Below the pieces are notes generated by a model that was not told where the DNA came from, did not search any database, and worked only from the letters and a program-made list of their open reading frames with translations. From Rhodopseudomonas boonkerdii (GTDB lineage: Bacteria > Pseudomonadota > Alphaproteobacteria > Rhizobiales > Xanthobacteraceae), in the NCBI RefSeq assembly GCF_021184025.1, contig NZ_CP036537.1, positions 3,162,001-3,226,000 on the forward strand: 64,000 nt of DNA, given 5' to 3'. Of the stretch, positions 8,337 through 59,795 are shown piece by piece. The position numbers were made by a program, and so were the translations under genes. Each line of letters begins with the position of its first letter. Position 1 is the stretch's first letter.

Positions 8337-8340
8337 CCCC

Positions 8341-9840
8341 GTGACCTCAGCCAGCACCTCGCCGACCCTCGATGGATTGTTCCGCCGCTCGCTGCTCCGG
8401 CAGCCCGAGGCGCTGGCTCTGGTCGATCCTGCCGACAAAATGCGTGTCACACAGACGCCGCAACAGCGCCTCACCTTCGCCGCAGCAGATCGTGAGATAA
8501 ACGCCCTCACAGCGCATTTTATCGACATGGGCCTGCCGCCGGGCTCGGTCATCGCCTTACAGCTTCCAAACACTGTGGAATTCGTCCTGACGGTGCTCGC
8601 CGCGCACCGCGCGGGCTTGGTTGCCGCACTGTTGCCGCAACTCTGGCGGCAGCACGATCTCACCACTGCATTGAACCGCACCGGCGCCCGCGCCATCGTC
8701 ACATCGAGCAAGATCGACGGCGTCAGCCATGCCGACCTCGCGATGAATGCAGCAGCTGAAGCCTTTTCGATCCGCTATGTCGGCGGCTTCGGCAACGATC
8801 TGCCGGAAGGCATGATCCCGCTCGACCACGTGCTGGCCGGCCCTTTCATCGAACCGCTGCCGCCGACACCGGACGCGCGCAGCGCCGCCATCATCACCTT
8901 CGACACCGCCGCCGACGGTTTTCGTGCCGTGCCGCGAACCCATCTTAATCTGATTTCCGGCGGGCTCGCGGTCTTCCTCGAAAGCGGCATACCGCAAGGT
9001 GCCAGCACGATGTCGGCGCTGGTGCCGACATCGTTCGGCCATCTCGCATCATCGCTCGTTACCTGGCTGCTGTCCGGCGGCGTCCTGGCGCTGCATCATC
9101 CGTTGGACAGCGCGGTGCTGGAGCGCGAGATCATCGATGGCGGCTGCGATGTGCTGGTCGCTCCCGCGCCCTTCGCCCATCGCCTCGCCGAGGATGGCCT
9201 GCTCGACCGCGCACCGATGCTCAGGCATGTGGTGGGCCTCTGGCGTATGCCGGAACAGGTGGAAAGCTCCCCGGCCTGGCCGGCATCACAGGCCGATTTC
9301 ACTGACGTGTATCTGTTCGGTGAGGCCGGCTTGTTCGGGGCCATCCGCGGCGACGATGGCTCGCCCGCGGCCATTCTTCCGGGCCCGCACGGCGCTCCCC
9401 GCGCCGCCGCGGGCACTGCCGTCGCTGGCGAAACGCTGCTGTCGCCGCGCGGCACGCTTGGCCTTCGCGGCCCGATGGTGCCCGTCCTCGCCTATACGGC
9501 GCAGCCCGATGCCAGCAACGGGCTGATCCCGGCCAAACCGCTCGACTATGTGGACACAGGCTATCAGGCCCGCCTCGACCGCGCGACCGGCGCATTGCAC
9601 ATCACCGCACCGCCCTCCGGTGTGACTTCTGTCGGCGGTTATCGTTTCCTCGCCCAGGATCTCAGCGAATGGGCCAAGCGGCTTGGCGACAATGCCATGC
9701 TGACGGCACTCCCGGACCGCCTTGGCGGCTACCGCCTCGCCGGTCGCGCCAGCGACAACGGCCGCGCCCGCGAAGCCCTGACGGAACTCGGCCTCAATCC
9801 TCTGATGGTCGAGGCGTTCCGGGATCGGGCAGCGGAGTAA
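8341..9840 (+). CDS. adenylate-forming superfamily (AMP-binding) protein lacking catalytic motifs
   Basis: Protein of 499 residues with an acyl-CoA-synthetase-like fold: an N-terminal stretch like those ligases (DPADKMRV, LTFAAADREINALTAHFIDMG, VIALQLPNTVEFVLTVLAAHRAGL), then a position where the Ser/Thr/Gly-rich phosphate loop should stand. There the sequence is ITFDTAADGFRAVPRTH, without the usual Gly-rich TSGTTGxPKG pattern or its Lys. The adenine motif is replaced by YLFGEAGLFG, the ribose motif by DTGYQARLD, and the C-terminal catalytic Lys region is absent from RLGGYRLAGRA. It is likely a pseudoenzyme or a very divergent enzyme. It starts with GTG four bases after the binding-protein gene, so the two are probably co-transcribed. 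A hairpin at 9871 ends the unit. Confidence 0.75.
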   Translation: MTSASTSPTLDGLFRRSLLRQPEALALVDPADKMRVTQTPQQRLTFAAADREINALTAHFIDMGLPPGSVIALQLPNTVEFVLTVLAAHRAGLVAALLPQLWRQHDLTTALNRTGARAIVTSSKIDGVSHADLAMNAAAEAFSIRYVGGFGNDLPEGMIPLDHVLAGPFIEPLPPTPDARSAAIITFDTAADGFRAVPRTHLNLISGGLAVFLESGIPQGASTMSALVPTSFGHLASSLVTWLLSGGVLALHHPLDSAVLEREIIDGGCDVLVAPAPFAHRLAEDGLLDRAPMLRHVVGLWRMPEQVESSPAWPASQADFTDVYLFGEAGLFGAIRGDDGSPAAILPGPHGAPRAAAGTAVAGETLLSPRGTLGLRGPMVPVLAYTAQPDASNGLIPAKPLDYVDTGYQARLDRATGALHITAPPSGVTSVGGYRFLAQDLSEWAKRLGDNAMLTALPDRLGGYRLAGRASDNGRAREALTELGLNPLMVEAFRDRAAE

Positions 9841-45796: not shown

Positions 45797-46546
45797 TCAG
45801 TAAGTCGCCCGACCTCCCGAGAGATCGAAGACCGCTCCTGTACTGAAGGAACACTCCTCGCTGGTGAGCCAACACACCATGGACGCAACCTCCTCCAAGG
45901 TGCCGAACCGCCCTTGGGGAATCTTCGACAGCATGAAGTCGATATGTTGCTGGGTCATCTGATCAAACAGCGGGGTCTTGATCGCCGCCGGTGTCACGCA
46001 ATTGACCCTGATGCCACTCTTGGCGGTTTCCTTGCCAAGTGACTTCGTCAAGCCGATCACGGCAGCCTTTGAAGCGCTATAGGCGGACGCATTCGGGTTG
46101 CCCTCCTTACCAGCGATCGATGCGATGTTGACGATACGCCCGTAGTCGTTCTTCTCCATCGCGCGAACCGCGGCACGATTGACGAAAAACGTGCCGTTGA
46201 CATTGATGTCGAACACTCGCCGCCAGTCTTCCGCCGGATAGTCGCGCAGGGGCGTGTTCGGCCCCGTGATGCCCGCGCTGGACACGACGATATCAAGCTT
46301 CGCGCCCAAGGCGGCGATCGACCGCTTCATACCGACTTCGACATCCCGTTCAGACGAGATGTCGATCTTTTCTATATGTGCTCCGTCGAGTTCTGCTGCA
46401 GCCCGCTCAATGGCGTCACTGACATCCCACATCGCGACTTTTGCGCCTTCGGCAACGAGACGCCGCGCGACCTCCTTGCCAATTCCGGACGCCGCTCCGG
46501 TCACGATGGCGGTGCGGCCCGCGAACCTACGTTGCGCGAAATTCAT
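45797..46546 (-). CDS. short-chain dehydrogenase/reductase (SDR)
   Basis: NAD(P)-dependent oxidoreductase of 249 residues from ATG 46546, which overlaps the FAH-family gene's stop by four bases. The Rossmann motif TGAASGIG, VSSAGITG (NAG-like), the catalytic Ser region NIASIAGKEG and YSASK are all present, and the C-terminus ends FDLSGGRATY like the classical beta-ketoacyl-reductase subgroup. Asp39-type acid (MWDVSD) suggests NAD preference. Last gene of the meta-cleavage operon, so it probably oxidises or reduces a late intermediate; the exact substrate is unknown. Confidence 0.9.
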   Translation of the reverse strand: MNFAQRRFAGRTAIVTGAASGIGKEVARRLVAEGAKVAMWDVSDAIERAAAELDGAHIEKIDISSERDVEVGMKRSIAALGAKLDIVVSSAGITGPNTPLRDYPAEDWRRVFDINVNGTFFVNRAAVRAMEKNDYGRIVNIASIAGKEGNPNASAYSASKAAVIGLTKSLGKETAKSGIRVNCVTPAAIKTPLFDQMTQQHIDFMLSKIPQGRFGTLEEVASMVCWLTSEECSFSTGAVFDLSGGRATY

Positions 46547-47412
46547 CGAACCCCGGCTCCGTCCTTGGACCACGCGACCACCTTTTGACGCTGAACTCCG
46601 AGCTTCTCGATGCCAACGGTCATCGTGTCGCCGGGCTTCAGGTAGATCGGGGTGGGCTTGATGCCCATTCCGACACCCGGCGGGGTGCCGGTCGCAATCA
46701 CATCGCCGGGCAAGAGCGTCATAAAGCGGCTGACATAGCTGACGATCTCGGCGCAATTGAAGATCATCGTGCGCGTATTGCCCATCTGCATACGGCGGTC
46801 ATTCACGTCGAGCCACAGATCGAGCGCCTGTACGTCTCCTACCTCATCCTTGGTGACCAGCCATGGACCGACGGGACCGAAGGTGTCGCAACCCTTGCCT
46901 TTGTCCCAAGTGCCGCCGCGCTCCATCTGGTATTCGCGCTCACTGACATCGTTCACGACGCAGTATCCTGCCACGTAGGAGAGCGCATTCTCCGGCGGGA
47001 CATAGGTCGCCTTGGTGCCAATGACGATGCCAAGCTCGACCTCCCAGTCGGATTTCTGCGAAGCTTGGGGGAGCATCACGTCGTCATTCGGTCCGGATAG
47101 TGAGGTAATTGCCTTCTGAAAGACGATGGGCTCCGACGGGACCGGAAGACCAGCCTCGGCCGCATGGTCGGAATAGTTGAGGCCGATCGCGACGAATTTG
47201 CCAATTCCGGAAATGGGAACGCCAAAGCGTTGAGGGCCTGTCACCTGCGGCAGGGCCGATATCGAGACTTCCGCGATCGCCTTCAAAGACGCCGGAGACA
47301 ATGTCGCCGGACCAATATCCGGCACTACCGATGACAGGTCGCGCAGCACGCCGTCGTTGCCAACCAAGCCGGGCTTTTCCGCGCCCGGCTGTCCAAATCT
47401 CACAAGTTTCAT
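46543..47412 (-). CDS. fumarylacetoacetate hydrolase (FAH) family protein
   Basis: Enzyme of 289 residues of the large FAH family (hydrolases, decarboxylases and isomerases acting on 2-oxo acids). N-terminal small domain, then the catalytic core: FVAIGLNYSDHAAEAG, VELGIVIG (metal-binding Glu), GYCVVNDVSEREYQ, DTFGPVGPWL and PGDVIATGTPPGVGMG. All metal-site elements appear intact. Within the operon it may act on the ring-cleavage product branch, a role that mhpE/F-type enzymes fill elsewhere. Between hydratase gene (22 bases) and SDR gene (overlap). Confidence 0.9.
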   Translation of the reverse strand: MKLVRFGQPGAEKPGLVGNDGVLRDLSSVVPDIGPATLSPASLKAIAEVSISALPQVTGPQRFGVPISGIGKFVAIGLNYSDHAAEAGLPVPSEPIVFQKAITSLSGPNDDVMLPQASQKSDWEVELGIVIGTKATYVPPENALSYVAGYCVVNDVSEREYQMERGGTWDKGKGCDTFGPVGPWLVTKDEVGDVQALDLWLDVNDRRMQMGNTRTMIFNCAEIVSYVSRFMTLLPGDVIATGTPPGVGMGIKPTPIYLKPGDTMTVGIEKLGVQRQKVVAWSKDGAGVR

Positions 47413-47434
47413 GTGGCTCTCTTCTATTTTTCGA

Positions 47435-48220
47435 TCAGGCGAAACGGGCGCTCACCGAGCCTAATCCCTCGATACTCGCCTGGAATACGTCGCCGGAATT
47501 CGCCGGAACCATTGGGCCAAGCGCTCCGGACAGAACGATGTCTCCTGCACGCAGCGGACGGCCTCGCTTTCCCAGTTCAGCAGCGAGCCATGCCACCGCA
47601 TTAAGAGGGTTATCGAGACAGGCCGCGCCCTTGCCTTCCGACGCAACGTCGCCATTGCGCGTCATCTTCATCGTGACTTCGCGAAGGTTGAGGTCACCCA
47701 ATGGGCGTTTGTCCTGTCCGAGAACGAACAGAGCCGACGAAGCATTGTCCGCGATCGTATCGTAAATCGAGATTTCCCAGTTGCGGATGCGGCTGCCGAC
47801 GATCTCGAGTGCAGGCATCACGAATGCCGTTGCATCAAAAATCTCCTTTGCCGTCGGATTGGCACTGACGATGTCCCGTGCCATTTCGAACGCGACCTCT
47901 GCCTCGATCTTGGGCTGGAGCACCCGCCCCTTTGCGACCGGTTCGTCCTCCTGGACCTGCATATCCGCAAAGAGGATGCCAAAGTCAGGCCGATCGACGC
48001 CCAACTGCTTTTGCACGGCAGGCGAGGTCAGGCCGATCTTGCACCCGACGATACGGCGTCCTTCGGCCAGCCAATGCGACGTGTTGGCCTCCTGGATGGC
48101 GTATGCCGTGTCGATTTCCTGGAAGATCAGTTGCGTCCTGATCGGCGGGATCGGTTCTCCGGAATAGGCCTCCCGGATCGCTTTCGCGATGCCGTCGATG
48201 TTCTCTGCAACATTTGCCAT
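47435..48220 (-). CDS. mhpD: 2-keto-4-pentenoate hydratase (MhpD-like)
   Basis: Enzyme of 261 residues that hydrates 2-hydroxypenta-2,4-dienoate to 4-hydroxy-2-oxovalerate. Typical elements: IPPIRTQLIFQEIDTAYAIQ, RIVGCKIGLTSPAVQKQLGVDRPDFG, EAEVAFEMARDI, PALEIVGSRIRNW, LRAGDIVLSGALGPMVPANSGD. Length matches MhpD. It lies seven bases after the C-C hydrolase gene, whose product it would use. The name is by family; other FAH-fold hydratases or decarboxylases (4-oxalocrotonate type) have the same fold. Confidence 0.83.
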   Translation of the reverse strand: MANVAENIDGIAKAIREAYSGEPIPPIRTQLIFQEIDTAYAIQEANTSHWLAEGRRIVGCKIGLTSPAVQKQLGVDRPDFGILFADMQVQEDEPVAKGRVLQPKIEAEVAFEMARDIVSANPTAKEIFDATAFVMPALEIVGSRIRNWEISIYDTIADNASSALFVLGQDKRPLGDLNLREVTMKMTRNGDVASEGKGAACLDNPLNAVAWLAAELGKRGRPLRAGDIVLSGALGPMVPANSGDVFQASIEGLGSVSARFA

Positions 48221-48227
48221 ATCAGCC

Positions 48228-49106
48228 TTACCCCTTCAGGAATTCGATGTGGATGCGATTGAACAGTTCGGCGTCCTCAAACTGGGGCCAGTGGCCGCAT
48301 TCGTTCATGACGACATACTTGGCGCCCGGGATCATGTCCGCGATCTGCTTGCCCTCTTCCGGCGTTGCCGTGGGATCATGCGAGGTCCAGACCACCAGAG
48401 TCGGAGCCTTGATAGACTTGTACTGCTCGGCGGTGATCATGTTGGGGCGGCGGATTTCCATCTCCTGAAGGCACATGATGCGCTTCATGGTCTCGGAGAA
48501 GCCGGACTGGGAATAGATCGCCCGGCGTGTCTCGATGAGATCGTCCGAGACCATGCTCTTGTCGCACATCAAGAACTCAAGACGGGTCTTGATGCGCTCC
48601 CAGGTCGGGTCCGAGGCGGCCTCGTTTGACAGGGTCTTCAATCGCTCCATGACGTGCGGATGCGCGGTCCAGCCGCCCGCCGTGTTGAGTACGAGCTTTT
48701 CGACGACCTGTGGATGGTGAACCGCGAGATAGGTCGAGACCCAGCCGCCAAGAGACTCGCCGGTCAGCATCGCGCGATCCCGACCGAGGGTCTTCAGGAC
48801 CGCTAGAATGTGTTCGGCGTAATCCTTGACCTGATAATTGATCGGCGGCTGATTGGTCCAACCATGACCGAGCATATCGATGGCGACAAACCAAAAATCC
48901 GCGTTGGCGTGCGGACCAAAATTACGCGAATACGCCTCGGCATGCCCGCCGACGCCGTGAAGCGCGAGAACTAGCGGCTTGGACGGATCGCCGGACTCGA
49001 TGCATCGGGTCCGGATCCCGCCAGCGTCGATGAAGTGCTGCTTGAAGGAAACGCCCTTCAGATCGGCCCAGACGCTCGAGAAATTGTTCGGTCGTGTATT
49101 GCTCAT
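48228..49106 (-). CDS. alpha/beta hydrolase, meta-cleavage product C-C hydrolase type
   Basis: Cytosolic enzyme of 292 residues, MhpC/BphD-like. Nucleophile elbow GESLGGW (Ser), oxyanion stretch ALHGVGGHAEAYSRNFG, acid region VVWTSHDPTATPEEG and catalytic His in NECGHWPQFED. The triad is complete. In aromatic meta-pathways it splits the ring-cleaved dienoate into 2-hydroxypentadienoate and a carboxylic acid. It follows the FAD hydroxylase gene after 26 bases. Confidence 0.88.
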   Translation of the reverse strand: MSNTRPNNFSSVWADLKGVSFKQHFIDAGGIRTRCIESGDPSKPLVLALHGVGGHAEAYSRNFGPHANADFWFVAIDMLGHGWTNQPPINYQVKDYAEHILAVLKTLGRDRAMLTGESLGGWVSTYLAVHHPQVVEKLVLNTAGGWTAHPHVMERLKTLSNEAASDPTWERIKTRLEFLMCDKSMVSDDLIETRRAIYSQSGFSETMKRIMCLQEMEIRRPNMITAEQYKSIKAPTLVVWTSHDPTATPEEGKQIADMIPGAKYVVMNECGHWPQFEDAELFNRIHIEFLKG

Positions 49107-49132
49107 AGGATTATCCGGTTGTCTTCGATTGG

Positions 49133-50950
49133 TTATGCGAACAGCGGGGCCTCCGTCTGCTCGCGGTATGGAGGCGCTGCATCGGCTTCGACATTGTTGA
49201 AGTCGTTGCGGGCGAGGATTTTCTGAAGTGCGTTGGCTAGCTTGTCGTACGCATCGCTGTCATCGCTCGCGGCGGCCGATTGACGCCAAGCAACGACGCC
49301 GTCCGGCCGCACAAGCACGGCGCCCGCTTCGTCGATCTCGCGGATCCGCTGCCATTCGCAGTAGAGATCCTGCTGGTCGGGCGTCCCGATAACCACCACT
49401 CGGAGGAAAGGCAGGTTCATCTGCTCGACGGCCTTCTTCCAGTTCTCGCCCGCGAGACCGGTCACGACCGCGAAAGAGCCCTTCCCCGTGACGTCCAACG
49501 TCGATTTACGTTTGCCGTCGACTCCAACGATCCATGCATGTGGGATTTTCGCACCGGGTCGCGTCGTAGCCTGATTGTAGAGACCTTGATCCCTGCGCCA
49601 TACCTCGGGCTCGGCATTCGCATCGGCAAGGACAGCGCCGCTTTCGTAGCGCTGGTTCATCTCGGTGCCCTGCGCGTTGAATTCCGTCTGCTTGAGATCG
49701 AGTGCGTCCTGGACCGCTCGGCGGGCCGCAACACCCTCCGGGCCGGGATCCTGGAAGCGCGCGATGCCTGCGGCCACAGGGTTCGCAGCTTCCGGAACGC
49801 GGAAACACGCATTCAGCGGCGCATAGTCCATGCGAGACTGGTTGGCGCGCTTCACGATCTGCTCGCCAACAGGAGCGCGTTCTGCCGAATAGCTTTCGAG
49901 CAATGCAGGCCCCGCATATCCCTTGATGACGTATGCGAGCTTCCAAGCGAGGTTATGGCCGTCTTGAACGCAAGTGTTCATGCCGAGACCGCTCGATGGC
50001 GGATGGCGATGTACCGCATCACCGCCGCACAGAACCCTGCCCTTCGTGTATTCAGTCGCGTAAGCTTGGTTAACGTACCAAAGCGACGTCCGAACGATAT
50101 CGATGTTGATCTTCGGGTCACCAATCAGGATTCGGATTTTCGAGATGATCGTGTCCGATGAAAGATCCGGCTCGCCCTTGTTGATGTCGAAGCCCCATCC
50201 TGCGATCCAACGTGTCCAGGGACGAACGGCTCGCAGGAGGCCCATTCCAATCTCACCGAAACTGGCATCCGGCGTCACGATCCAGTTGAGGATGCTCGGT
50301 CGATGGGCGCTGTACTTCGAGAGGTCGGCATCGAAGATCGTATAGACAGTGCCGGCACGCGCCATTTGCCCAATAATCGGCAGTCCAAGGTGTTCGACCA
50401 CCGATGAACGAGCGCCATCGGCTCCGACCATGTATTTCGCCCGGATCGTGTATTCACGCCCGTCAAGGCGATCTCGCATCCGGGCCGTGACGCCGTTTTC
50501 GTCCTGCTCATGGCCGAGATATTCGGTGTTGAACGTAAACGTCGCACCTCGCTCGGCCGCCTTCTGCAGCAGGATCGGCTCAAGCAAGGGCTGAATGATA
50601 TCGACCATGCCGCAAGGGCTGGCCTTCAGATAATCGCCCTTGCGGTCGTCGCCGGTGCCCCAGGTGCGCATCCGGATCAGTTCCGGACCCGCCAAGCTGG
50701 TCGCGAAGGTGGTGTCTCCCATCACGTCCCAGTGGCTCGCAAAGCGAGCGATCTCGTCATCGATGCCGAGATCGCGGAAGACTTCGTTCGCCCGCTGGTT
50801 GGTGATGTGGGCCCGCGGACTATCCGCGAGCCATGCAGAACGCGACACCATGTGCGCGCGCACGCCGTAAGTGGCGAGCCCGAGCGCCGTGGTGGCACCC
50901 ATAGGACCAGAACCTATGATCAACACGTCCGTGTTGAAATCCGCACTCAT
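49133..50950 (-). CDS. FAD-dependent aromatic hydroxylase (TfdB/MhpA type)
   Basis: Flavoprotein monooxygenase of 605 residues that hydroxylates a phenolic substrate to a catechol. FAD-binding motifs: IIGSGPMGATTALGL at the N-terminus, VGADGARSSV, and GRVLCGGDAVHRHPPSSGLGMN. The C-terminal domain is thioredoxin-like without redox cysteines. It resembles the 2,4-dichlorophenol and phenol hydroxylase branch (RAHITNQRANEVFRDLG) more than classical MhpA. It lies 41 bases after the extradiol dioxygenase gene. Substrate not readable. Confidence 0.9.
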   Translation of the reverse strand: MSADFNTDVLIIGSGPMGATTALGLATYGVRAHMVSRSAWLADSPRAHITNQRANEVFRDLGIDDEIARFASHWDVMGDTTFATSLAGPELIRMRTWGTGDDRKGDYLKASPCGMVDIIQPLLEPILLQKAAERGATFTFNTEYLGHEQDENGVTARMRDRLDGREYTIRAKYMVGADGARSSVVEHLGLPIIGQMARAGTVYTIFDADLSKYSAHRPSILNWIVTPDASFGEIGMGLLRAVRPWTRWIAGWGFDINKGEPDLSSDTIISKIRILIGDPKINIDIVRTSLWYVNQAYATEYTKGRVLCGGDAVHRHPPSSGLGMNTCVQDGHNLAWKLAYVIKGYAGPALLESYSAERAPVGEQIVKRANQSRMDYAPLNACFRVPEAANPVAAGIARFQDPGPEGVAARRAVQDALDLKQTEFNAQGTEMNQRYESGAVLADANAEPEVWRRDQGLYNQATTRPGAKIPHAWIVGVDGKRKSTLDVTGKGSFAVVTGLAGENWKKAVEQMNLPFLRVVVIGTPDQQDLYCEWQRIREIDEAGAVLVRPDGVVAWRQSAAASDDSDAYDKLANALQKILARNDFNNVEADAAPPYREQTEAPLFA

Positions 50951-50991
50951 TGGAGACCTCCTTCGATTTTATTGATTTGCGGAGACGCCCG

Positions 50992-51945
50992 TCAGCGGGC
51001 GGCCGTCTCCGATCCACGTGCGGCGATCATCGCCATGCCCGCGATCCAACCCGGGATCGCTTCGTAGAACTCGCGTTCAACCTTGTATTCGCCGGCGGCG
51101 GACAAGGCGCCGAATGCTGCGATCCAGGAAAGCACTTCGTTGGCTCCGCGTCCGGCGGCCTTACGGACTTCATCCGTGTCCAGCTTGTCGGCGGATACGA
51201 AATCACCCGAGCGAAGGATACGCATGAACTCTGCGTCCCATTCAGGATTGAGTGGCGCGCATGGGCCTTTCCCTGCCTCGGCGAGTACGCCCGCTTCGAG
51301 GACTTTCTCCTCGCGAGCTTTCTGAGCCTCAGGCGATTGATGCCGATTGTTGATCAGGCGCTCGCGCACCTCTGGCGTCGCAGTGCGGATGTCCGGAAGC
51401 GGCGGATCGTGCGACAGGCCGCCGGACGCCGCGAACAGCACACGTTTGCCGGATTTGGCGGCGAAACGGCCGACCGCCTCGCCGAGCATGCGGGTGCGGC
51501 GATAGGTCGGGAGCGGAGGGGCAGCACCGTTCACGAAAATCGGCAGAAGAGGGATCGAGCGGAAATTGCCGAACATCGCTTCCCACATCTGGACGAAGCC
51601 GTGATCGACGGGCATTCGATATGAGAGCGCGACGTCGAAATCAGCGGCACGGAGATAGTCGGTGAGTTCGAGAGCGGTATCTTCCGGAACGGGAAGCGGC
51701 CCGAGGCCGCCTCCCCAATCTCCAAGTGACTCCGCTCCCGCGCCAACACAGAATGCGGGCATCAAGTCGTAGAAGAATCCGTTGAAGTGGTCCGGCGCGA
51801 ATTGAATGATGTAATCGGGATTGTAATCGCGGAGCCACGCTCCAAGATCCGAGAAGGCGTCCTTGACGCGCTGCTCGGTCTCTGTGGTCGCCGGACCGCG
51901 ATACATCAACGGTGTGTGCGAAGCGCAAACAACAGCAAAAGACAT
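50992..51945 (-). CDS. mhpB: class III extradiol dioxygenase, MhpB type (3-carboxyethylcatechol 2,3-dioxygenase family)
   Basis: Ring-cleaving dioxygenase of 317 residues, closely patterned on E. coli MhpB: CASHTPLMYRG, FAPDHFNGFFYDLMPAFCVG, YRMPVDHGFVQ, LLPIFVNGAAPPLPTYRRTRMLGEAVGRF, SGGLSHDPPLPDI, then the C-terminal PGWIAGMAMIAARG. Conserved His in DHGF and GLSH are the catalytic and metal-site residues of the family. Likely substrate: a catechol with an acidic side chain, such as 2,3-dihydroxyphenylpropionate, inferred from family. Confidence 0.92.
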   Translation of the reverse strand: MSFAVVCASHTPLMYRGPATTETEQRVKDAFSDLGAWLRDYNPDYIIQFAPDHFNGFFYDLMPAFCVGAGAESLGDWGGGLGPLPVPEDTALELTDYLRAADFDVALSYRMPVDHGFVQMWEAMFGNFRSIPLLPIFVNGAAPPLPTYRRTRMLGEAVGRFAAKSGKRVLFAASGGLSHDPPLPDIRTATPEVRERLINNRHQSPEAQKAREEKVLEAGVLAEAGKGPCAPLNPEWDAEFMRILRSGDFVSADKLDTDEVRKAAGRGANEVLSWIAAFGALSAAGEYKVEREFYEAIPGWIAGMAMIAARGSETAAR

Positions 51946-51985
51946 CAGTTATCTCCTTGCATTGAATTTCTCATCAGCCGCTCGC

Positions 51986-53209
51986 TTACTTTTGGACGAG
52001 CGAGCACTCGCTCTCGGCAAGCGGCCGCGCCAGGGATTCTCCCGGCAAGGTCTGAAGCACGTTGTAAAGATCCCACTCGCCCTTCGGTTCGCCGGGCTTC
52101 TTGACCTGCAGGAGGTACATGTCGTGGATCATCTTGCGATCGGCGCGGATGTATCCGTCCTTGGCGAAGAAGTCGTTCACCTTCTGGGATTCCATCTGCT
52201 TCATGACAGTGTTGGCATCGTCCGTCCCCGTTGCCTTCACGGCCTTCAGGTAGTGAACGACCGAGGAATAGACGCCCGCATGAAATCCGCTCGGCATGAT
52301 CTTCGCCTTTTCGAAGAACCGCTTCGCCCATGCGCGCGTCTCCTCGTTGCGATCCCAGTAAAACGGCGCAACCTCGTACGCGCCCTGAGCCGTCTTCACG
52401 CCGATGCCCTTCATGTCCTGCACGGTGGACTGCAGCGGCACGATCTTGGCGGTCGAATTGAGCCCGAATTCCTCGGCCTGCTTCATCGCCGTTTCGGTAT
52501 CGCCGCTCGCGGATGCGATGGCGATGACATCCGCCTTCGTGCTTTGAGCGCGCAGCAGAACGGAAGAGAAATCGGAATTGCGCGATGGGAACACCGAGTT
52601 ACCGAGGACCTCCCCACCGTTCTTCTTCACCTGCTCGATCGTGTCGCGCGTCAGTGCGTGCCCGTAGGCCTGATCAACAGTGAGGAAATACCACTTCTTG
52701 CCACCTGCGGCGGAGATTGCCTTGGCGGCGCCCTGCGCGAGACCATAGGTATCGACGGTCCATTGTACCGACAGCGGTGAGCAGGCCTTTCCAGAGAAGT
52801 CAGACGACGTGGATCCCGAAAGCAGCATGATCTTGCTCTTCTGCTTCGACAGGTTCTGCACGGCAAAGCCGATTGGCGAACCTTGCATATCCGCAACGGC
52901 ATCGACGCCTTCCACGTCGAACCAGCGGCCGGCGATCGCCATTCCGGCGTCGGGCTTACCCTGATGGTCGGCCGACACGACCTCGACCTTGAGACCATTC
53001 GCGGCATCCTCGGCCGCCATCTGCGCGGCGATGACGGATCCCATGCCGTTGGAGCTCGATGCCGGACCGCTGAGGTCGGTAAGGACGCCGATCTTGACGG
53101 TCCCATTGCTAATGCCGCCAGCCGTCTCCGCTGACTGCGCCCACGTCATGGTCGTCAGAGCCGTGGAAACGAGAAGGGTGGATGCGAGCGCGACGCTACG
53201 AATGAACAT
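51986..53209 (-). CDS. LivK/type-1 periplasmic binding protein for an aromatic or carboxylate ligand
   Basis: Periplasmic binding protein of 407 residues from ATG 53209 (an in-frame start four codons earlier is less likely). Signal peptide FIRSVALASTLLVSTALTTMTWA. Leu/Ile/Val-BP pattern: VKIGVLTDLSGPASSSNGMGSVIAAQMAAEDA, then NLSKQKSKIMLLSGSTSSDF, KWYFLTVDQAYGHAL, and AYEVAPFYWDRNEETRAWAKRF. Such subgroup members bind aromatic acids in Rhodopseudomonas and Bradyrhizobium. It is the first gene of the meta-cleavage operon, without its own permease or ATPase genes, so the liv-type transporter genes further right are candidate partners. Confidence 0.88.
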   Translation of the reverse strand: MFIRSVALASTLLVSTALTTMTWAQSAETAGGISNGTVKIGVLTDLSGPASSSNGMGSVIAAQMAAEDAANGLKVEVVSADHQGKPDAGMAIAGRWFDVEGVDAVADMQGSPIGFAVQNLSKQKSKIMLLSGSTSSDFSGKACSPLSVQWTVDTYGLAQGAAKAISAAGGKKWYFLTVDQAYGHALTRDTIEQVKKNGGEVLGNSVFPSRNSDFSSVLLRAQSTKADVIAIASASGDTETAMKQAEEFGLNSTAKIVPLQSTVQDMKGIGVKTAQGAYEVAPFYWDRNEETRAWAKRFFEKAKIMPSGFHAGVYSSVVHYLKAVKATGTDDANTVMKQMESQKVNDFFAKDGYIRADRKMIHDMYLLQVKKPGEPKGEWDLYNVLQTLPGESLARPLAESECSLVQK

Positions 53210-53284
53210 GGTCTCCTCCATTGATTTTTATATGTCCGTTCGCATTGACGGATGACGCGGAGGACTGCCATCTCTATTGTGGAA

Positions 53285-53303
53285 ATGTTCATGTGGTGAA
53301 CAT
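53285..53303. promoter_or_regulatory. perfect palindrome, candidate IclR/MhpR-type operator
   Basis: ATGTTCA-TGTGG-TGAACAT: seven-base arms, five-base spacer, perfect. It lies in the 104-base gap between the divergent binding-protein gene and the regulator gene, 11 bases before the preferred start of the latter. IclR-family regulators bind short palindromes near their own promoters; the match is to that pattern, not to a named consensus. Confidence 0.55.
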
Positions 53304-53313
53304 GGAGCAGACG

Positions 53314-54084
53314 ATGCACCCCAATGTCCGCGCCCTCTCGCGGGGTCTGGCAATCCTGGCCGAACTGAATGTCGGAGGTCCGAGTTCGGCCCAAACGCTC
53401 GCTCGCAAGACTGGGATCAATAGGACGACGGCGTATCGTCTGCTTCACACGATGATCGAAGACGGCTTCGTGACTTTCGACGAGCCCAGTGGAGAGTTCA
53501 GTTCGACGCCACAAGTCCGGCAACTGAGCGACGGTCTTTCGGCACGAGACGCCATGAGCCAGGCGGCACTTCCCGCTATGTTTGCTCTGATGAAAGAGGT
53601 TTCTTGGCCGAGTGATTTGGCAGTTTTTGACTCCGGCTCCGTAATCATCCGCGAGACCACGCATCCTTACAGTCCCTTTTCCGTACACCGCGCCATGATC
53701 GGACGTCGCCGCCCGTTCCTGAGGAGCTCGCTCGGCCGCGCCATCCTCGCGGCCGCGCGTCCAAAGGTGCGCAGGACCATGCTGGAAATCACTGCGGCTT
53801 CCGGAAATGCCGACGCCGCGCTTGCCGAGGATCAAGCGGTCATCAATGGACTCCTTGAGCAGTTCAATCGCGACGGCTTTGCGTGGTCCGTTGGCGAAAC
53901 CGAAAAGAACATCAGCGCCATCGCACTGCCGATCGTTGGCGCGAGCGGCGTCATCGGCAGCATGAACATCATTTTCTTCAGCACCACGATGACGCCTCAG
54001 AAGGCAGCGGGACGCTATCTGCGAAATCTGCAAAAGGCTGTCGCGTCAGTTGAGACCGAACTCAGACGCTCGATCAGACGGTGA
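53314..54084 (+). CDS. IclR-family transcriptional regulator, MhpR-like
   Basis: DNA-binding regulator of 256 residues. ATG 53314 has a GGAG site six bases upstream; ATG 53302 sits inside the palindrome and would leave it without one. N-terminal winged helix: VRALSRGLAILAEL, PSSAQTLARKTGINRTTAYRLLHTMIEDGFV. The effector domain shows DSGSVIIRETTHPYSPFSVHRAMIGRRRPFL and ALPIVGASGVIGSMNIIF, in the order seen in MhpR, the activator of the mhp operon. Divergent from the operon it presumably controls. Its effector would be the aromatic substrate. Confidence 0.9.
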   Translation: MHPNVRALSRGLAILAELNVGGPSSAQTLARKTGINRTTAYRLLHTMIEDGFVTFDEPSGEFSSTPQVRQLSDGLSARDAMSQAALPAMFALMKEVSWPSDLAVFDSGSVIIRETTHPYSPFSVHRAMIGRRRPFLRSSLGRAILAAARPKVRRTMLEITAASGNADAALAEDQAVINGLLEQFNRDGFAWSVGETEKNISAIALPIVGASGVIGSMNIIFFSTTMTPQKAAGRYLRNLQKAVASVETELRRSIRR

Positions 54085-55448: not shown

Positions 55449-57185
55449 ATGAAGAACTCTGAGTTCCGAATTGGCTTCATCCGGTCCGCAGACTGGCGGC
55501 CAAATATCTGGGATGTCGTTGCACTCGTATTGTTGATCGGAGCGCTCGTTCTGATCGCTTACGGGAGCGAACAGGCAGCCGTTCCTCTCTCCGATCTCGA
55601 ACATACCCCGCTGTCCTTGGGCCCCGAAAATCTGCCCATCTATGCCTTGCGCACGATGCTCCGGATGCTGCTGGCGATGGCCTGTTCGATCGTATTTACG
55701 TTCGCCTATGCGACGCTCGCCGCAAAAAGCAGGCGCGCGGAGATGGTCCTCATCCCCTTACTGGACATTCTTCAATCAGTCCCGATCCTCGGCTTTCTGA
55801 CCTTCACCGTCGTATTCTTCATGAACCTGTTTCCGGGACAGGTCCTCGGCGCCGAGATGGCCTGTGTTTTCGCGATCTTCACGAGCCAGGCCTGGAATAT
55901 GACCTTCAGCATGTACCAGTCCTTGCGCAGTGTGCCCAAGGACCTGGACGAAGCATCTCGCAGCTTTCGCCTGTCGGGCTGGCAAAGGTTCTGGCGACTG
56001 GACGCGCCCTTCGCGGTTCCAAGCCTGATCTGGAATGCGATGATGTCGATGTCCGGTGGCTGGTTTTTCGTCGTCGCGTCCGAGGCGATCACCGTTGGCA
56101 ACGTGACCGTCACGCTTCCTGGTATCGGATCGTATGTCGCACTTGCGATCCAGCAGAAGAACCTTTCGGCAATTGGCTACGCGCTAGCTGCCATGATCAT
56201 CGTTATCCTGATGTACGATCAGCTTCTTTTCCGACCGGCGGTCGCATGGGCAGACAAATTCCGCTTCGAACAGACGGCATCCGGCGTCTCTCCCACCTCA
56301 TGGGTTCTGGATGTATTTCGACGCACACGCGCTCTGCGAATCCTGCTGAAGCCATTCTACCTTGCTTCCGACACGATCTATCGACTGCGTGTGAATCTAC
56401 CCGTTCATCGTCGCAAAGCCTCAACGGACGTCGCGCGTAGCCGCATCGGCGATGCCGCGTGGATTGGACTTGTTGCCCTGCTCACCATCTATTGCGCCTG
56501 GCAGGTCTACACCTATTTGTCGTCAGCTCTCGGCTGGACCGACGTCGGCATCGCGTTGACCTATGGTCTGATCACATTGGCACGCGTGCTGGTTCTCATT
56601 CTTCTGGCAACCCTGATCTGGGTGCCGATCGGCGTGTGGATCGGCTTGCGGCCGCGTATCGCGGAACGTGTTCAGCCGATCGTTCAATTCCTCGCTGCCT
56701 TTCCCGCAAACATTGCTTTCCCGATTTTCGTGCTCGCAATTGTTCGCCTGGATCTGAACGCTAACGTCTGGCTGAGCCCTCTGATGATTCTGGGGACGCA
56801 ATGGTACATTCTCTTCAACGTGATTGCCGGAGCCTCTGCTTTCCCCACCGATTTGCGCGAAGCCGCCGGCTCCTTCCATCTGAAAGGATGGCGGTGGTGG
56901 TTCAAGGTCATATTACCGGGGATCTTCCCATACTACGTCACCGGCGCGATCACCGCTTCAGGAGGATCGTGGAACGCCTCGATCGTCGCAGAAGTCGCGA
57001 GTTGGGGCGACACCCACCTGACCGCCATTGGGCTCGGTGCCTACATCGCACAAGCAACTGAGGCTGGTGACTTTCACAGGGTTGTGCTTGGCATCACTGT
57101 CATGTGCGTGATGGTCACGCTGTTCAATCGCCTGCTCTGGCGCCCTCTCTATGCCATCGGCGAACGACGCCTTCGTTTCGGCTAA
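55449..57185 (+). CDS. double-domain ABC permease (NitT/TauT-like superfamily)
   Basis: Inner-membrane protein of 578 residues formed by two BPD-type permease halves in one chain. Each half has a coupling-helix (EAA-like) region: YQSLRSVPKDLDEASRSFRLSGWQRFWRLDAPFAVPSL in the first, FPTDLREAAGSFHLKGWRWWFKVILPGIFPYY in the second. About 12 helices in all. With the ATPase gene 12 bases downstream it forms a complete membrane part of an importer. No binding protein is adjacent. Substrate unknown (nitrate, sulfonate or metal-type relatives). Confidence 0.9.
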   Translation: MKNSEFRIGFIRSADWRPNIWDVVALVLLIGALVLIAYGSEQAAVPLSDLEHTPLSLGPENLPIYALRTMLRMLLAMACSIVFTFAYATLAAKSRRAEMVLIPLLDILQSVPILGFLTFTVVFFMNLFPGQVLGAEMACVFAIFTSQAWNMTFSMYQSLRSVPKDLDEASRSFRLSGWQRFWRLDAPFAVPSLIWNAMMSMSGGWFFVVASEAITVGNVTVTLPGIGSYVALAIQQKNLSAIGYALAAMIIVILMYDQLLFRPAVAWADKFRFEQTASGVSPTSWVLDVFRRTRALRILLKPFYLASDTIYRLRVNLPVHRRKASTDVARSRIGDAAWIGLVALLTIYCAWQVYTYLSSALGWTDVGIALTYGLITLARVLVLILLATLIWVPIGVWIGLRPRIAERVQPIVQFLAAFPANIAFPIFVLAIVRLDLNANVWLSPLMILGTQWYILFNVIAGASAFPTDLREAAGSFHLKGWRWWFKVILPGIFPYYVTGAITASGGSWNASIVAEVASWGDTHLTAIGLGAYIAQATEAGDFHRVVLGITVMCVMVTLFNRLLWRPLYAIGERRLRFG

Positions 57186-57197
57186 CAGGAGATTGTC

Positions 57198-58508
57198 ATG
57201 CTCGAAGGTGCTGCACAGATGAATCTCATCGAACTCTCCAAAGTCGGCCGATCGTTTCCCAAGGGAAGCGGCGACAGCCTGCTCGTCCTCGAAAACGTTG
57301 ACCTCACCATCAAGAGTGGAGAAATTGTCGGCCTTCTCGGACGCTCCGGTTCCGGAAAATCCACGTTGCTACGGATCATCGCTGGCCTCATCGCACCTTC
57401 CGAAGGCGATGCGAGATACCGCGGCGATCCGATCGAAGGGCCACCGCGCGGTCTGGCCATGGTCTTTCAGTCGTTCGCGCTATTCCCATGGTTGACGGTG
57501 CTGCAGAACGTGGAACTGGGCTTGGAAGCCCTCGGGTTGGACGCTGGCGAGTGCCGCAACCGTGCCTTGGCCGCCATCGACCTGATCGGCCTCGACGGGT
57601 TCGAATCCGCATATCCGAAGGAATTGTCGGGCGGAATGCGGCAACGCGTAGGATTTGCTCGCGCACTCGTCGTGCATCCCGATCTTCTTTTAATGGACGA
57701 GCCTTTCTCCGCGCTCGATGTCCTCACCGCCGAGACGTTGAGGACGGACCTGATCGATCTTTGGAGCGAAGGTCGTCTTCCCATCAAGTCCGTTCTGATG
57801 GTCACGCACAACATCGAGGAAGCGGTGCTGTTGTGCGATCGTATTCTGGTGTTTTCGTCAAATCCGGGACGTGTGGCGACTGAGATCAAGGTGGATTTTC
57901 CCCATCCTCGCAACCGTCTCGACCCTGCATTTCGCCAGCTCGTGGATAGCATCTACGCGCGAATGACCCTTCGGGATGATGTCGCCATCGTGGCGACGCC
58001 CGGATCATACGGCGCCGGAATAGACCTAGCCCTCAACCACGCATCGTCAAACGAACTGTCCGGCTTGATCGAGACGCTCGCGGCATCCCCCTATCACGGC
58101 CGGGCCGATCTTCCCGTCCTGGCGGGACAATTTCAGTTTGAAGCCGATGACATGTTTCAGCTTTGCGAAGCTCTGCAGGTACTGCGGTTCGCTCGTCTGA
58201 ACGATGGCGATATCGTGCTTACCGAGGCGGGCAAGCGATTTGCCAATCTGGGTACCGATGATCGCAAGAAGCTGTTCGCTGATCACCTTCTGAGCTTCGT
58301 CCCGGTGGTCGGATTGATTCGTCGCGTGCTGGATGAACGGCCAACGCACACGGCACCGATCGCACGGTTTCGGAACGAATTGGAAGATTACATGTCGGAA
58401 GGCTACGCGCAGGAAACATTACGCACCGCAATATCCTGGGGACGATATGCCGAACTGTTCGCCTACGATGAGGCGTCTGACACTTTCAGCCTTGAGGATC
58501 CGAGCTGA
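57198..58508 (+). CDS. ABC transporter ATP-binding protein with C-terminal AAA-associated domain
   Basis: ATPase subunit of 436 residues; ATG 57198 has an AGGAG site. The N-terminal ABC domain (about 1-230) has Walker A GRSGSGKST, the Q-loop AMVFQSFALFPWLTV, the signature LSGGMRQRV, Walker B LLLMDEPFSALD and the switch His in VTHNIEE. The C-terminal part (about 285-436) resembles the AAA-associated regulatory domain of nitrate/sulfonate-type ATPases (ADDMFQLCEALQVL, FADHLLSFVPVVGLIRRVL). Pairs with the upstream double permease. Intact catalytic residues. Confidence 0.93.
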   Translation: MLEGAAQMNLIELSKVGRSFPKGSGDSLLVLENVDLTIKSGEIVGLLGRSGSGKSTLLRIIAGLIAPSEGDARYRGDPIEGPPRGLAMVFQSFALFPWLTVLQNVELGLEALGLDAGECRNRALAAIDLIGLDGFESAYPKELSGGMRQRVGFARALVVHPDLLLMDEPFSALDVLTAETLRTDLIDLWSEGRLPIKSVLMVTHNIEEAVLLCDRILVFSSNPGRVATEIKVDFPHPRNRLDPAFRQLVDSIYARMTLRDDVAIVATPGSYGAGIDLALNHASSNELSGLIETLAASPYHGRADLPVLAGQFQFEADDMFQLCEALQVLRFARLNDGDIVLTEAGKRFANLGTDDRKKLFADHLLSFVPVVGLIRRVLDERPTHTAPIARFRNELEDYMSEGYAQETLRTAISWGRYAELFAYDEASDTFSLEDPS

Positions 58509-58616: not shown

Positions 58617-59021
58617 TTATTTGACCTGCCCCATTTCCTTGAGAACCTCGTTCGCCACTTTGAAGGCGTCTAGGCCGGCCGGAATGCCACAATAGACTGT
58701 CGCGTGCAGAAGCACTTCCTTGATCTCCTCGACGGTGACACCGTTATTGATCGCGCCCCGGGTGTGCAGCTTAATCTCGGGCGAGCGATTGAGCGCGGTC
58801 AGCATCGCGAGATTCAGCATGCTACGCGTTTTCTTGTCGAGACCCGGACGATTCCAGGCATAGCCCCAGCACCATTCGGTGGTGATGTGCTGGAACGCCA
58901 TCATGAAATCATTGGCGGCGTCGATCGACTTGTCCACATAAGCGGCGCCGAGCACTTCGCGGCGTGTCTTCAGACCTTCGTCAAACAGGCCGCCAAGGGT
59001 GATCGTCTGGTTGTAGCTCAT
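58617..59021 (-). CDS. carboxymuconolactone decarboxylase family protein
   Basis: Cytosolic protein of 134 residues: YNQTITLGGLFDEGLKTRREVLGAAYVDKS, WCWGYAWNRPGLDKKTRSMLNLAML, RSPEIKLHTRGAINNGVTVEEIKEVLLHATVYCGIPAGLDAF. The PcaC-type decarboxylase acts in protocatechuate catabolism, but the wider family includes peroxidase-like AhpD proteins. The CxxC of AhpD is absent, which favours the PcaC branch. Last gene of the liv-type operon on the same strand, 51 bases after livF. Confidence 0.88.
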   Translation of the reverse strand: MSYNQTITLGGLFDEGLKTRREVLGAAYVDKSIDAANDFMMAFQHITTEWCWGYAWNRPGLDKKTRSMLNLAMLTALNRSPEIKLHTRGAINNGVTVEEIKEVLLHATVYCGIPAGLDAFKVANEVLKEMGQVK

Positions 59022-59072: not shown

Positions 59073-59795
59073 TCAGATACCGAGATAGGCAGCACGAACG
59101 GCCGGATTCTCATTCAATTCGGCTGATGTACCTTGCAGCGTGACACGCCCACTTTCCAGAACATAACCGCGTGCGGCGACGTCAAGAGCGAGGCTGACAT
59201 TCTGTTCGACGAGGAGAATCGAGGTTCCACCGCGATGGATCTTCACGAATGCCTCGTGCATCTCCTCGACGACCTTCGGCGCGAGACCGTGGCTGGGCTC
59301 ATCGAGCAACAGCAGCTTGGGCTGCAGCATCAGCGCGCGACCGACCGCCACCATCTGCTGCTCTCCGCCAGACAGCGTGCCTGCAAGCTGGGCCCGCCGC
59401 TCACGCGTTCGCGGAAAAAGCTCAAAGATTCGTTCCATTCGCTGCTGCAGGTCGGTCGCCTTGCGTGCGGTGAATGCGCCAAGCATCAGGTTTTCCTCGA
59501 CACTCATGTCCGGGAAGACATGGCGCCCTTCCGGGACATGCGCGATGCCGAGCGACGGAATGTCGTGCGCTGTGCGTGTGGCGAGATCGGTGCCATTGAA
59601 GCGCAACGTGCCGCGAACATTGGGGACAAGACGCGAGATCGTGCGCAGGATCGTACTCTTGCCCGCAGTATTGGCGCCGATGATGCAAACGAATTCGCCG
59701 TCATGCATCTGAATATCGATATCGTGCAACACATCGATGCCGCCGTAGCCGGCATTGAGGCCCTTGATTTCAAGGAGAGGCTGGGAGGTGTTCAT
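59073..59795 (-). CDS. livF: branched-chain amino-acid-type ABC ATPase LivF
   Basis: ATP-binding subunit of 240 residues: Walker A GANTAGKST (Ala-Gly-Lys instead of the common Gly-Ala-Gly-Lys), signature TLSGGEQQMVAVG, Walker B LLLLDEPSHGL, then GYVLESGRVTLQG near the end. The start overlaps the livG stop by four bases. Energises uptake through LivHM. Confidence 0.93.
   Translation of the reverse strand: MNTSQPLLEIKGLNAGYGGIDVLHDIDIQMHDGEFVCIIGANTAGKSTILRTISRLVPNVRGTLRFNGTDLATRTAHDIPSLGIAHVPEGRHVFPDMSVEENLMLGAFTARKATDLQQRMERIFELFPRTRERRAQLAGTLSGGEQQMVAVGRALMLQPKLLLLDEPSHGLAPKVVEEMHEAFVKIHRGGTSILLVEQNVSLALDVAARGYVLESGRVTLQGTSAELNENPAVRAAYLGI

Follow-up and report, generated by a model that had tools for sequence, protein, structure and literature searches.

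The E. coli-type mhp pathway consists of MhpABCDEF and its regulator is of the IclR family. To our knowledge, the ending described for meta-cleavage pathways that proceed via 2-hydroxypenta-2,4-dienoate is a pair of enzymes, an aldolase (MhpE) and an acylating acetaldehyde dehydrogenase (MhpF). The locus analyzed here lies in a window of 64,000 nucleotides of the Rhodopseudomonas boonkerdii genome (contig NZ_CP036537.1, positions 3,162,001 to 3,226,000 of the forward strand; coordinates without prefix refer to this window) and is an operon of seven consecutive genes on the minus strand, running from 53221 to 45797. With the mhp pathway, whose gene order is also shown by the plasmid locus L135, it shares an MhpB-type dioxygenase, a C-C hydrolase, an MhpD-type hydratase with 4-hydroxy-2-oxopentanoate as expected product, and the IclR family of the regulator. 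However, where mhp has MhpE and MhpF the operon has an FAH-family protein (FAH) and a short-chain dehydrogenase/reductase (SDR). Furthermore, its hydroxylase and hydrolase are of other subfamilies and it includes an ABC-type substrate-binding protein (SBP). We propose that SDR and FAH probably replace the aldolase and the acetaldehyde dehydrogenase and give this arylpropionate-type meta-cleavage operon an oxidative-hydrolytic ending. The genes, separated in this order by 40, 41, 26, 7, 22 and -4 bases, are:

51986..53221, minus strand: periplasmic SBP, first gene of the operon (Pfam Peripla_BP_6), as also in the syntenic operon L037
50992..51945, minus strand: MhpB-type extradiol dioxygenase (LigB fold)
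49133..50950, minus strand: FAD-dependent ring hydroxylase, HbpA/TfdB-like
48228..49106, minus strand: alpha/beta-fold C-C hydrolase for the meta-cleavage product (Abhydrolase_1, 93.5 bits; motifs GESLGG, SHDP and CGHW)
47435..48220, minus strand: MhpD-type 2-oxopent-4-enoate hydratase
46543..47412, minus strand: FAH-family hydrolase, proposed acetylpyruvate (2,4-dioxopentanoate) hydrolase
45797..46546, minus strand: SDR of 249 aa, proposed NAD-dependent (4S)-4-hydroxy-2-oxopentanoate 4-dehydrogenase

The initial annotation had listed the dioxygenase, hydroxylase, C-C hydrolase, hydratase, FAH and SDR in this region, and all six are present on the minus strand with Pfam and NCBIfam matches. 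The SBP gene had been left out, and the SDR had been taken as an open reading frame of 319 aa, which is too long since its ATG lies at 46546, overlapping the stop codon of the FAH gene.

The closest described counterpart of the FAH-SDR pair is found in route III of L-rhamnose and pentose degradation, where an SDR oxidizes C4 of a 2-keto-3-deoxy acid and an FAH-family protein cleaves the resulting 2,4-diketo acid (PMC6336799, PMC11199699). The two systems have the same two enzyme subfamilies, adjacent to each other also in clusters of the L-rhamnonate dehydratase gene rhmD, and the chemistry proposed here, oxidation at C4 followed by hydrolysis of a 1,3-diketone to pyruvate and an acid, would be alike. 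In contrast, the pair in the operon would be fed by a meta-cleavage hydratase, whereas route III is fed by a sugar-acid dehydratase. As 4-hydroxy-2-oxopentanoate equals 2-keto-3-deoxypentonate (KDP) minus the C5 hydroxyl, acetate would be released in place of lactate or glycolate.

The FAH-SDR pair occupies the slot of mhpF and mhpE

The whole operon with the same gene order is found in another genus (L037). Over the matched stretches the identities are 60% for IclR, 72% for SBP, 74% for the dioxygenase, 75% for the hydroxylase and 87% for the hydrolase, followed by 67% for the hydratase, 77% for FAH and 72% for SDR. Four related clusters have the classical ending. L117 encodes a dioxygenase (56%), a hydrolase (80%), a flavin reductase, the hydratase, MhpF, MhpE and a hydroxylase (69%); L179 a hydrolase (70%), the hydratase, MhpF and MhpE; L180 the same with a hydrolase of 59% and a flavin reductase before the hydratase; and L178 a hydroxylase (64%), a dioxygenase, the hydratase, MhpF and MhpE. 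Hydratase-FAH-SDR in the operon and L037 versus hydratase-MhpF-MhpE in these four is thus a slot-for-slot exchange in related clusters.

The exchange was also tallied in 100 hydratase-anchored stretches, namely the best 29 matches in the host's family, 53 of 55 matches in the class (own locus excluded) and 18 of 21 new matches in the phylum; weaker hydratase matches of the family, 34-43% identical among those listed, lay outside the tally. MhpE/F-type genes were present within 6 kb of the hydratase in 55 stretches. An SDR of the 4-dehydrogenase type scoring above 230 bits within 3.5 kb was found in none of these 55 and in 6 of the 45 others, and with a limit of 200 bits and 9 kb in 0/55 and 10/45, respectively. 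The counts become 7/45 and 11/45 when L035, in which the SDR match is split by a frame change, is added by hand. Fisher's test gave p values for 3.5 and 9 kb of 0.0028 and 0.00007 with L035 and of 0.0068 and 0.00018 without it. Restricting the test to the 84 stretches that extend 3 kb or more to each side, L035 not added, gave 0/46 versus 5/38 (p 0.016) and 0/46 versus 9/38 (p 0.00044).

Marker domains of MhpE and MhpF in the genome

That mhpE and mhpF were replaced by an FAH-family protein and an SDR had already been noted from the sequence, together with the suggestion that the lower pathway may differ. Both are well supported, as neither gene is present in the operon, the route III-type pair stands in their slot and the marker domains were not found in the genome. 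This genome (a single contig of 5.63 Mb, 99.97% complete) was searched for PF09290 (acetaldehyde dehydrogenase, MhpF) and PF07836 (aldolase, MhpE), and neither had a match over cut-off. PF09290 gave zero matches genome-wide, and PF07836 only a sub-cut-off fragment of 44 aa with an internal stop at 21.5 bits (G000:C1:5162723-5162842, L001). The fragment was rejected as mhpE, the locus having no Pfam match in the one of six frames that was read with stops as X. It resembles the communication domain of the aldolase and may be a remnant or a chance match; the genome's second FAH gene is about 5 kb away.

Because the 14 standard control genomes gave no match for either domain, and searches without positive controls are weak, 18 further genomes were searched. 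In 13 of them the stretch around a related hydratase lacks any MhpE/F match, and in the other 5 MhpE/F are present there. Both domains scored over cut-off in all five positive controls and in none of the 13, two of which are less than 95% complete.

FAH and SDR resemble the enzymes of sugar-acid route III

The FAH matches Pfam FAA_hydrolase with 232.7 bits. Its nearest NCBIfam model is NF053535 (2,4-didehydro-3-deoxy-L-rhamnonate hydrolase) with 481.7 bits, below the cut-off of 500; this threshold also shuts out the copy beside the annotated rhmD of Caulobacter (L138), which reaches 497.7 bits. The nearest structure is L-2,4-diketo-3-deoxyrhamnonate hydrolase (PDB 8gsr, 368.7 bits). Residues His83, Glu86, Glu124, Glu126 and Asp155 are invariant in 15 aligned members, and His83 and Glu86 carry the same numbers as the catalytic residues named for C785_RS20550 (PMC6336799). 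By these features the protein can be assigned to the route III hydrolase subfamily with its catalytic His/Glu pair.

The SDR matches Pfam adh_short_C2 with 201 bits, and its best structures are 9jve (278 bits), 9kq1 (271 bits) and 6d9y (262 bits), while the next one reaches 173 bits. Both 9jve and 9kq1, 54-56% identical to the SDR, are titled 2-keto-3-deoxypentonate 4-dehydrogenase of H. huttiense and are taken to be C785_RS20555, which is strict for L-KDP, L-2-keto-3-deoxyrhamnonate (L-KDR) and NAD+ (PMC6336799); 6d9y is called a putative L-KDR dehydrogenase (PMC11199699). All 16 aligned members share Ser143, Tyr156, Lys160 and two basic residues, Lys208 and Arg246, which correspond by alignment and numbering offset to Lys209/Arg247 in PMC11199699. 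The SDR falls into a supported clade (100/98) with rhmD-linked SDRs, which places it by sequence among the L-KDP/L-KDR 4-dehydrogenases. Its AlphaFold2 model has a mean pLDDT of 85.9 (10 rows) with weak parts at 1-3, 145-148 and 244-249. In VIA-align the Z score was 34.1 at rank 1, 33.5 for 9kq1 and still 31.7 at rank 50, and since many SDRs have such nearly equal values the fold alone cannot separate them; they are told apart by sequence identity and by their order in Foldseek.

In L138 and L157 adjacent FAH and SDR genes come after rhmD, with the same 4-base overlap as in the operon, and the pair also comes after rhmD in L146 and, within the host's family, in L165, L166 and L168. In L143 FAH and rhmD are 5 kb apart and no SDR is close, and in L145, L147 and L148 FAH relatives lie beside genes annotated as L-fuconate dehydratase. 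With its place in rhmD clusters, and with no meta-cleavage hydratase in the plasmid FAH and SDR loci inspected, the pair resembles a module borrowed from sugar-acid route III. Within the operon no linkage to a sugar-acid dehydratase was found. Use of the pair by the host itself for L-rhamnose is not supported by a search for RhmD, the best RhmD-like match in the genome being 37% identical, though another dehydratase might serve instead. The genome has one more FAH (62% identical, L172) and one more SDR (56-57% identical, L171), the latter near an IlvD/Edd dehydratase.

In six further loci (L159, L160, L161, L162, L163 and L167) the pair is followed by a reading frame of 441-500 aa, a major facilitator superfamily (MFS) protein in L163, and an IclR match lies beside it in four of the six; this seems to be a stand-alone module.

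Proposed pathway and alternatives

The reactions proposed here are predicted from the sequences. The hydroxylase would yield a 3-substituted catechol, the MhpB-type dioxygenase would open its ring and the C-C hydrolase would free the side-chain acid and 2-hydroxypenta-2,4-dienoate, from which the hydratase would form (4S)-4-hydroxy-2-oxopentanoate. The SDR would then oxidize C4 with NAD+ to 2,4-dioxopentanoate (acetylpyruvate), and FAH would hydrolyze this to acetate and pyruvate. As these are the products, MhpE and MhpF would be dispensable and no acetaldehyde would be made. The (4S) configuration is that of the MhpD product, and by our own reasoning with the Cahn-Ingold-Prelog rules L-KDP or L-KDR without the C5 hydroxyl also falls into the (4S) series. 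The upper pathway is ordinary, whereas the lower one is unusual.

The chemistry is known from sugar acids. No such route for meta-cleavage was found by full-text searches of open-access literature, judged by titles and the starts of abstracts among the matches listed, a search that leaves most subscription journals outside and does not prove absence. If the proposal is true, sugar-acid and aromatic catabolism are joined at one intermediate and acetaldehyde is avoided. Operons of this kind, which now look incomplete and whose last genes are generically named, would have to be annotated differently, and engineered aromatic degradation would gain an outlet independent of CoA.

Several observations weigh against this proposal. 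L-2-keto-3-deoxyfuconate (L-KDF) 4-dehydrogenase, which belongs to another SDR clade, was inactive on a roughly racemic preparation of 4-hydroxy-2-oxopentanoate, and it uses a cyclic hemiketal which this compound cannot form (PMC11199699); if the L-KDP/L-KDR clade works in the same way, the SDR must have changed. The same paper pairs (4S)-4-hydroxy-2-oxopentanoate with D-KDP and L-KDF, opposite to our assignment. At the cut-offs used, relatives of FAH and SDR are present in 245 and 204 of the 296 genomes of the host's family, respectively, and the host genome itself has the further copy of each described above. The pairing is not universal, L150 having rhmD and SDR without FAH, and a meta-cleavage hydratase was found in 0/12 plasmid FAH loci (L137-L148) and 0/10 plasmid SDR loci (L149-L158). 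In the tally 34 of the 45 loci without MhpE/F also lack such an SDR within 9 kb, and five (L036, L038, L056, L057 and L095) have the SDR after the hydratase and no such FAH within 9 kb, although the contig of L057 ends 0.2 kb past the SDR. The Fisher values are guides only, as they treat related loci as independent.

The alternative that survives best has SDR and FAH acting on the side chain or another intermediate, e.g., the SDR as alcohol or dihydrodiol dehydrogenase and FAH as isomerase or decarboxylase. Both belong to large families, related pairs also occur in small operons (with an MFS gene where tested), and SDR genes of other clades are present in several aromatic clusters (L107, L177 and L179). 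However, the SDR of the operon groups with the rhmD-linked SDRs, the structure that matches it best is that of a 2-keto-3-deoxy acid 4-dehydrogenase, and FAH retains the hydrolase His/Glu pair, and we consider this alternative unlikely. Quite improbable is a second one, in which an HpaI-like aldolase encoded elsewhere splits 4-hydroxy-2-oxopentanoate and a generic aldehyde dehydrogenase oxidizes the acetaldehyde, with FAH and SDR serving otherwise. HpaI has served to synthesize 4-hydroxy-2-oxopentanoate, with pyruvate and acetaldehyde as starting compounds (PMC11199699), and the genome has an HpaI-family protein, which speaks against our proposal, but at 164.3 bits it is far below the TIGR02311 cut-off of 368.8, lies about 0.7 Mb from the operon and does not account for the presence of FAH and SDR where related clusters have MhpF and MhpE. 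Least probable by our estimate is a trihydroxylated ring from which the C-C hydrolase frees acetylpyruvate directly for FAH, as might follow from Pseudomonas mandelii 7HK4, where hydrolysis of the compound formed by ring cleavage of 3-(2,3,5-trihydroxyphenyl)propionate was suggested to yield succinate together with 2-hydroxy-4-oxopent-2-enoate, which is acetylpyruvate in its enol form (PMC6222606; products not identified there), since hydratase and SDR would be a superfluous side branch, yet both are kept in the operon and in L037 and, with no FAH nearby, in the five loci named above.

An apparent hydratase-SDR fusion in L036 was rejected as a shadow reading frame; two separate genes are present. 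In L107 (257-1856), L108 (7220-8813) and L110 (about 8000-9400) the gene directly after a hydratase (45-46% identical) encodes an SDR (32-35%) that belongs to another clade, with no MhpE/F nearby, and in L107 the next genes encode DUF1329 and DUF1302 proteins. This arrangement is possibly a second, independent dehydrogenase-type ending.

Possible recruitment of the pair

With moderate confidence we regard the oxidative-hydrolytic ending as a second, aldehyde-free branch of meta-cleavage, for which the route III pair was recruited on more than one occasion and, as a cassette, swapped with mhpFE. Two related loci, L048 and L059, carry an FAH-SDR pair 71 and 68% identical to that of the operon together with other upper genes; L048 encodes a VOC-superfamily protein as well as a different FAD hydroxylase and a different C-C hydrolase, and its hydratase passes the MhpD cut-off (395.1 versus 350). 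In a 40-row SDR tree the meta-linked rows are scattered over several positions between rhm-linked and unlinked pairs, with four label changes, at least three of them forced by starred branches (L048 and L059 labelled by hand). In a 32-row FAH tree the operon and L037 stand apart from L048 and L059, within a 10-row clade (96/95) whose other members include five unlinked pairs and a single rhm copy. Shuffling showed no clustering of the meta label there beyond chance, 64 of 500 shuffles being as low. Of the six meta rows, L051 and L083 bear the label solely because a hydratase is near, and their loci retain MhpE/F.

A scan of genome contigs with the hydratase as query gave one locus, PARB1 (L034), the closest relative of the operon. 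Nucleotide identity to PARB1, taken in 200-base segments, is 97-100% in the three segments of 47800-48399 and 80-99% in others over the operon. In nine segments from 47799 to 46000 it is 72-84% (64% in the last segment), with single-base insertions and deletions in FAH-SDR, which also counts against the proposal: the drop fits an exchange of the FAH-SDR block, but decay or an assembly error as well. The drop lies at 47600-47800, still within the hydratase gene and towards its 3' end, and may mark a recombination boundary.

Upper pathway and possible ring substrate

The dioxygenase matches Pfam LigB (134.9 bits) and passes the cut-off of NF009910 (3-carboxyethylcatechol 2,3-dioxygenase; 362.6 versus 291), while it stays under those of the other MhpB-named models NF009908 and NF009907. 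It aligns to PDB 8k04 with 279.8 bits and has the motifs SHTP, VDHGF and GGLSH. The hydratase matches Pfam FAA_hydrolase (59.0 bits), its best NCBIfam model being NF008461 (MhpD; 330.3 bits, cut-off 350), and PDB 2wqt/1sv6 (274.7 bits).

The hydroxylase carries FAD_binding_3 (335.4 bits) and Rng_hyd_C (63 bits) and is not an MhpA by profile, as the best MhpA-named model, NF004829, gave 169.1 bits with a cut-off of 390. Solved structures bear out the view that it is closer to phenol/chlorophenol enzymes, as 2-hydroxybiphenyl 3-monooxygenase is nearest among them (489.6 bits) and 2,4-dichlorophenol 6-monooxygenase reaches 445 bits. The nearest plasmid relatives include enzymes encoded beside MhpB-type dioxygenases. 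Fifteen plasmid relatives among the matches listed, from Burkholderia, Pseudomonas, Gordonia, Variovorax and Rhodococcus, are 60-66% identical; that of Pseudomonas pSTY lies about 8 kb from an MhpB-type gene and that of the Rhodococcus plasmid locus L177 two genes from one. Because of these neighbours an arylpropionate, e.g., 2-hydroxyphenylpropionate, seems likelier as substrate than a plain (chloro)phenol. OhpB of Rhodococcus V49 oxidizes 2- and 3-hydroxyphenylpropionate and cinnamic acids (PMC6222606), and with this range in mind our guess, of low confidence, is 2- or 3-hydroxyphenylpropionate.

L177, which we take to be an ohp-type (2-hydroxyphenylpropionate) cluster, resembles the operon in its hydroxylase (61% identical), hydrolase (50%) and MhpB-type dioxygenase (45%). 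It differs in having a GntR regulator and an MFS transporter, and neither the hydratase nor FAH has a match in the stretch. This cluster also ends in an SDR gene (L177:10851-11615), 30% identical to the SDR of the operon.

Regulator and neighboring genes

Upstream of the operon lie two further elements:

53302..54084, plus strand: IclR-family regulator, divergent from the operon (HTH_IclR 44.9 bits, IclR_C 48.3 bits)
53222..53301, no strand assigned: divergent intergenic region of 80 bp between the IclR and SBP genes, by this position the presumed promoter/operator

For the regulator, which scores 215.6 bits against NF007341 (cut-off 269), the ATG at 53302 is preferred as start over a TTG at 53221. 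A scan for the sigma-70 consensus gave no site within 53222..53301 and two in the whole stretch scanned, with 2.7 expected. The SBP probably serves uptake of an aromatic acid.

Beyond the regulator, 55449-58508 encodes, on the strand opposite to the operon, an ABC permease in which BPD_transp_1 matches twice and an ATPase that contains an AAA_assoc_C domain. A PcaC-like gene of the carboxymuconolactone decarboxylase family follows at 58617-59021 (TIGR02425, 144.6 versus 155.7), adjoined on the minus strand by a gene at 59073-59795 that looks like an ABC ATPase by eye and might serve the SBP of the operon. In the plasmid database a VOC family gene (L141:2220-2654) is labelled VIM-73 beta-lactamase with 100% identity, which looks like an odd automatic call.

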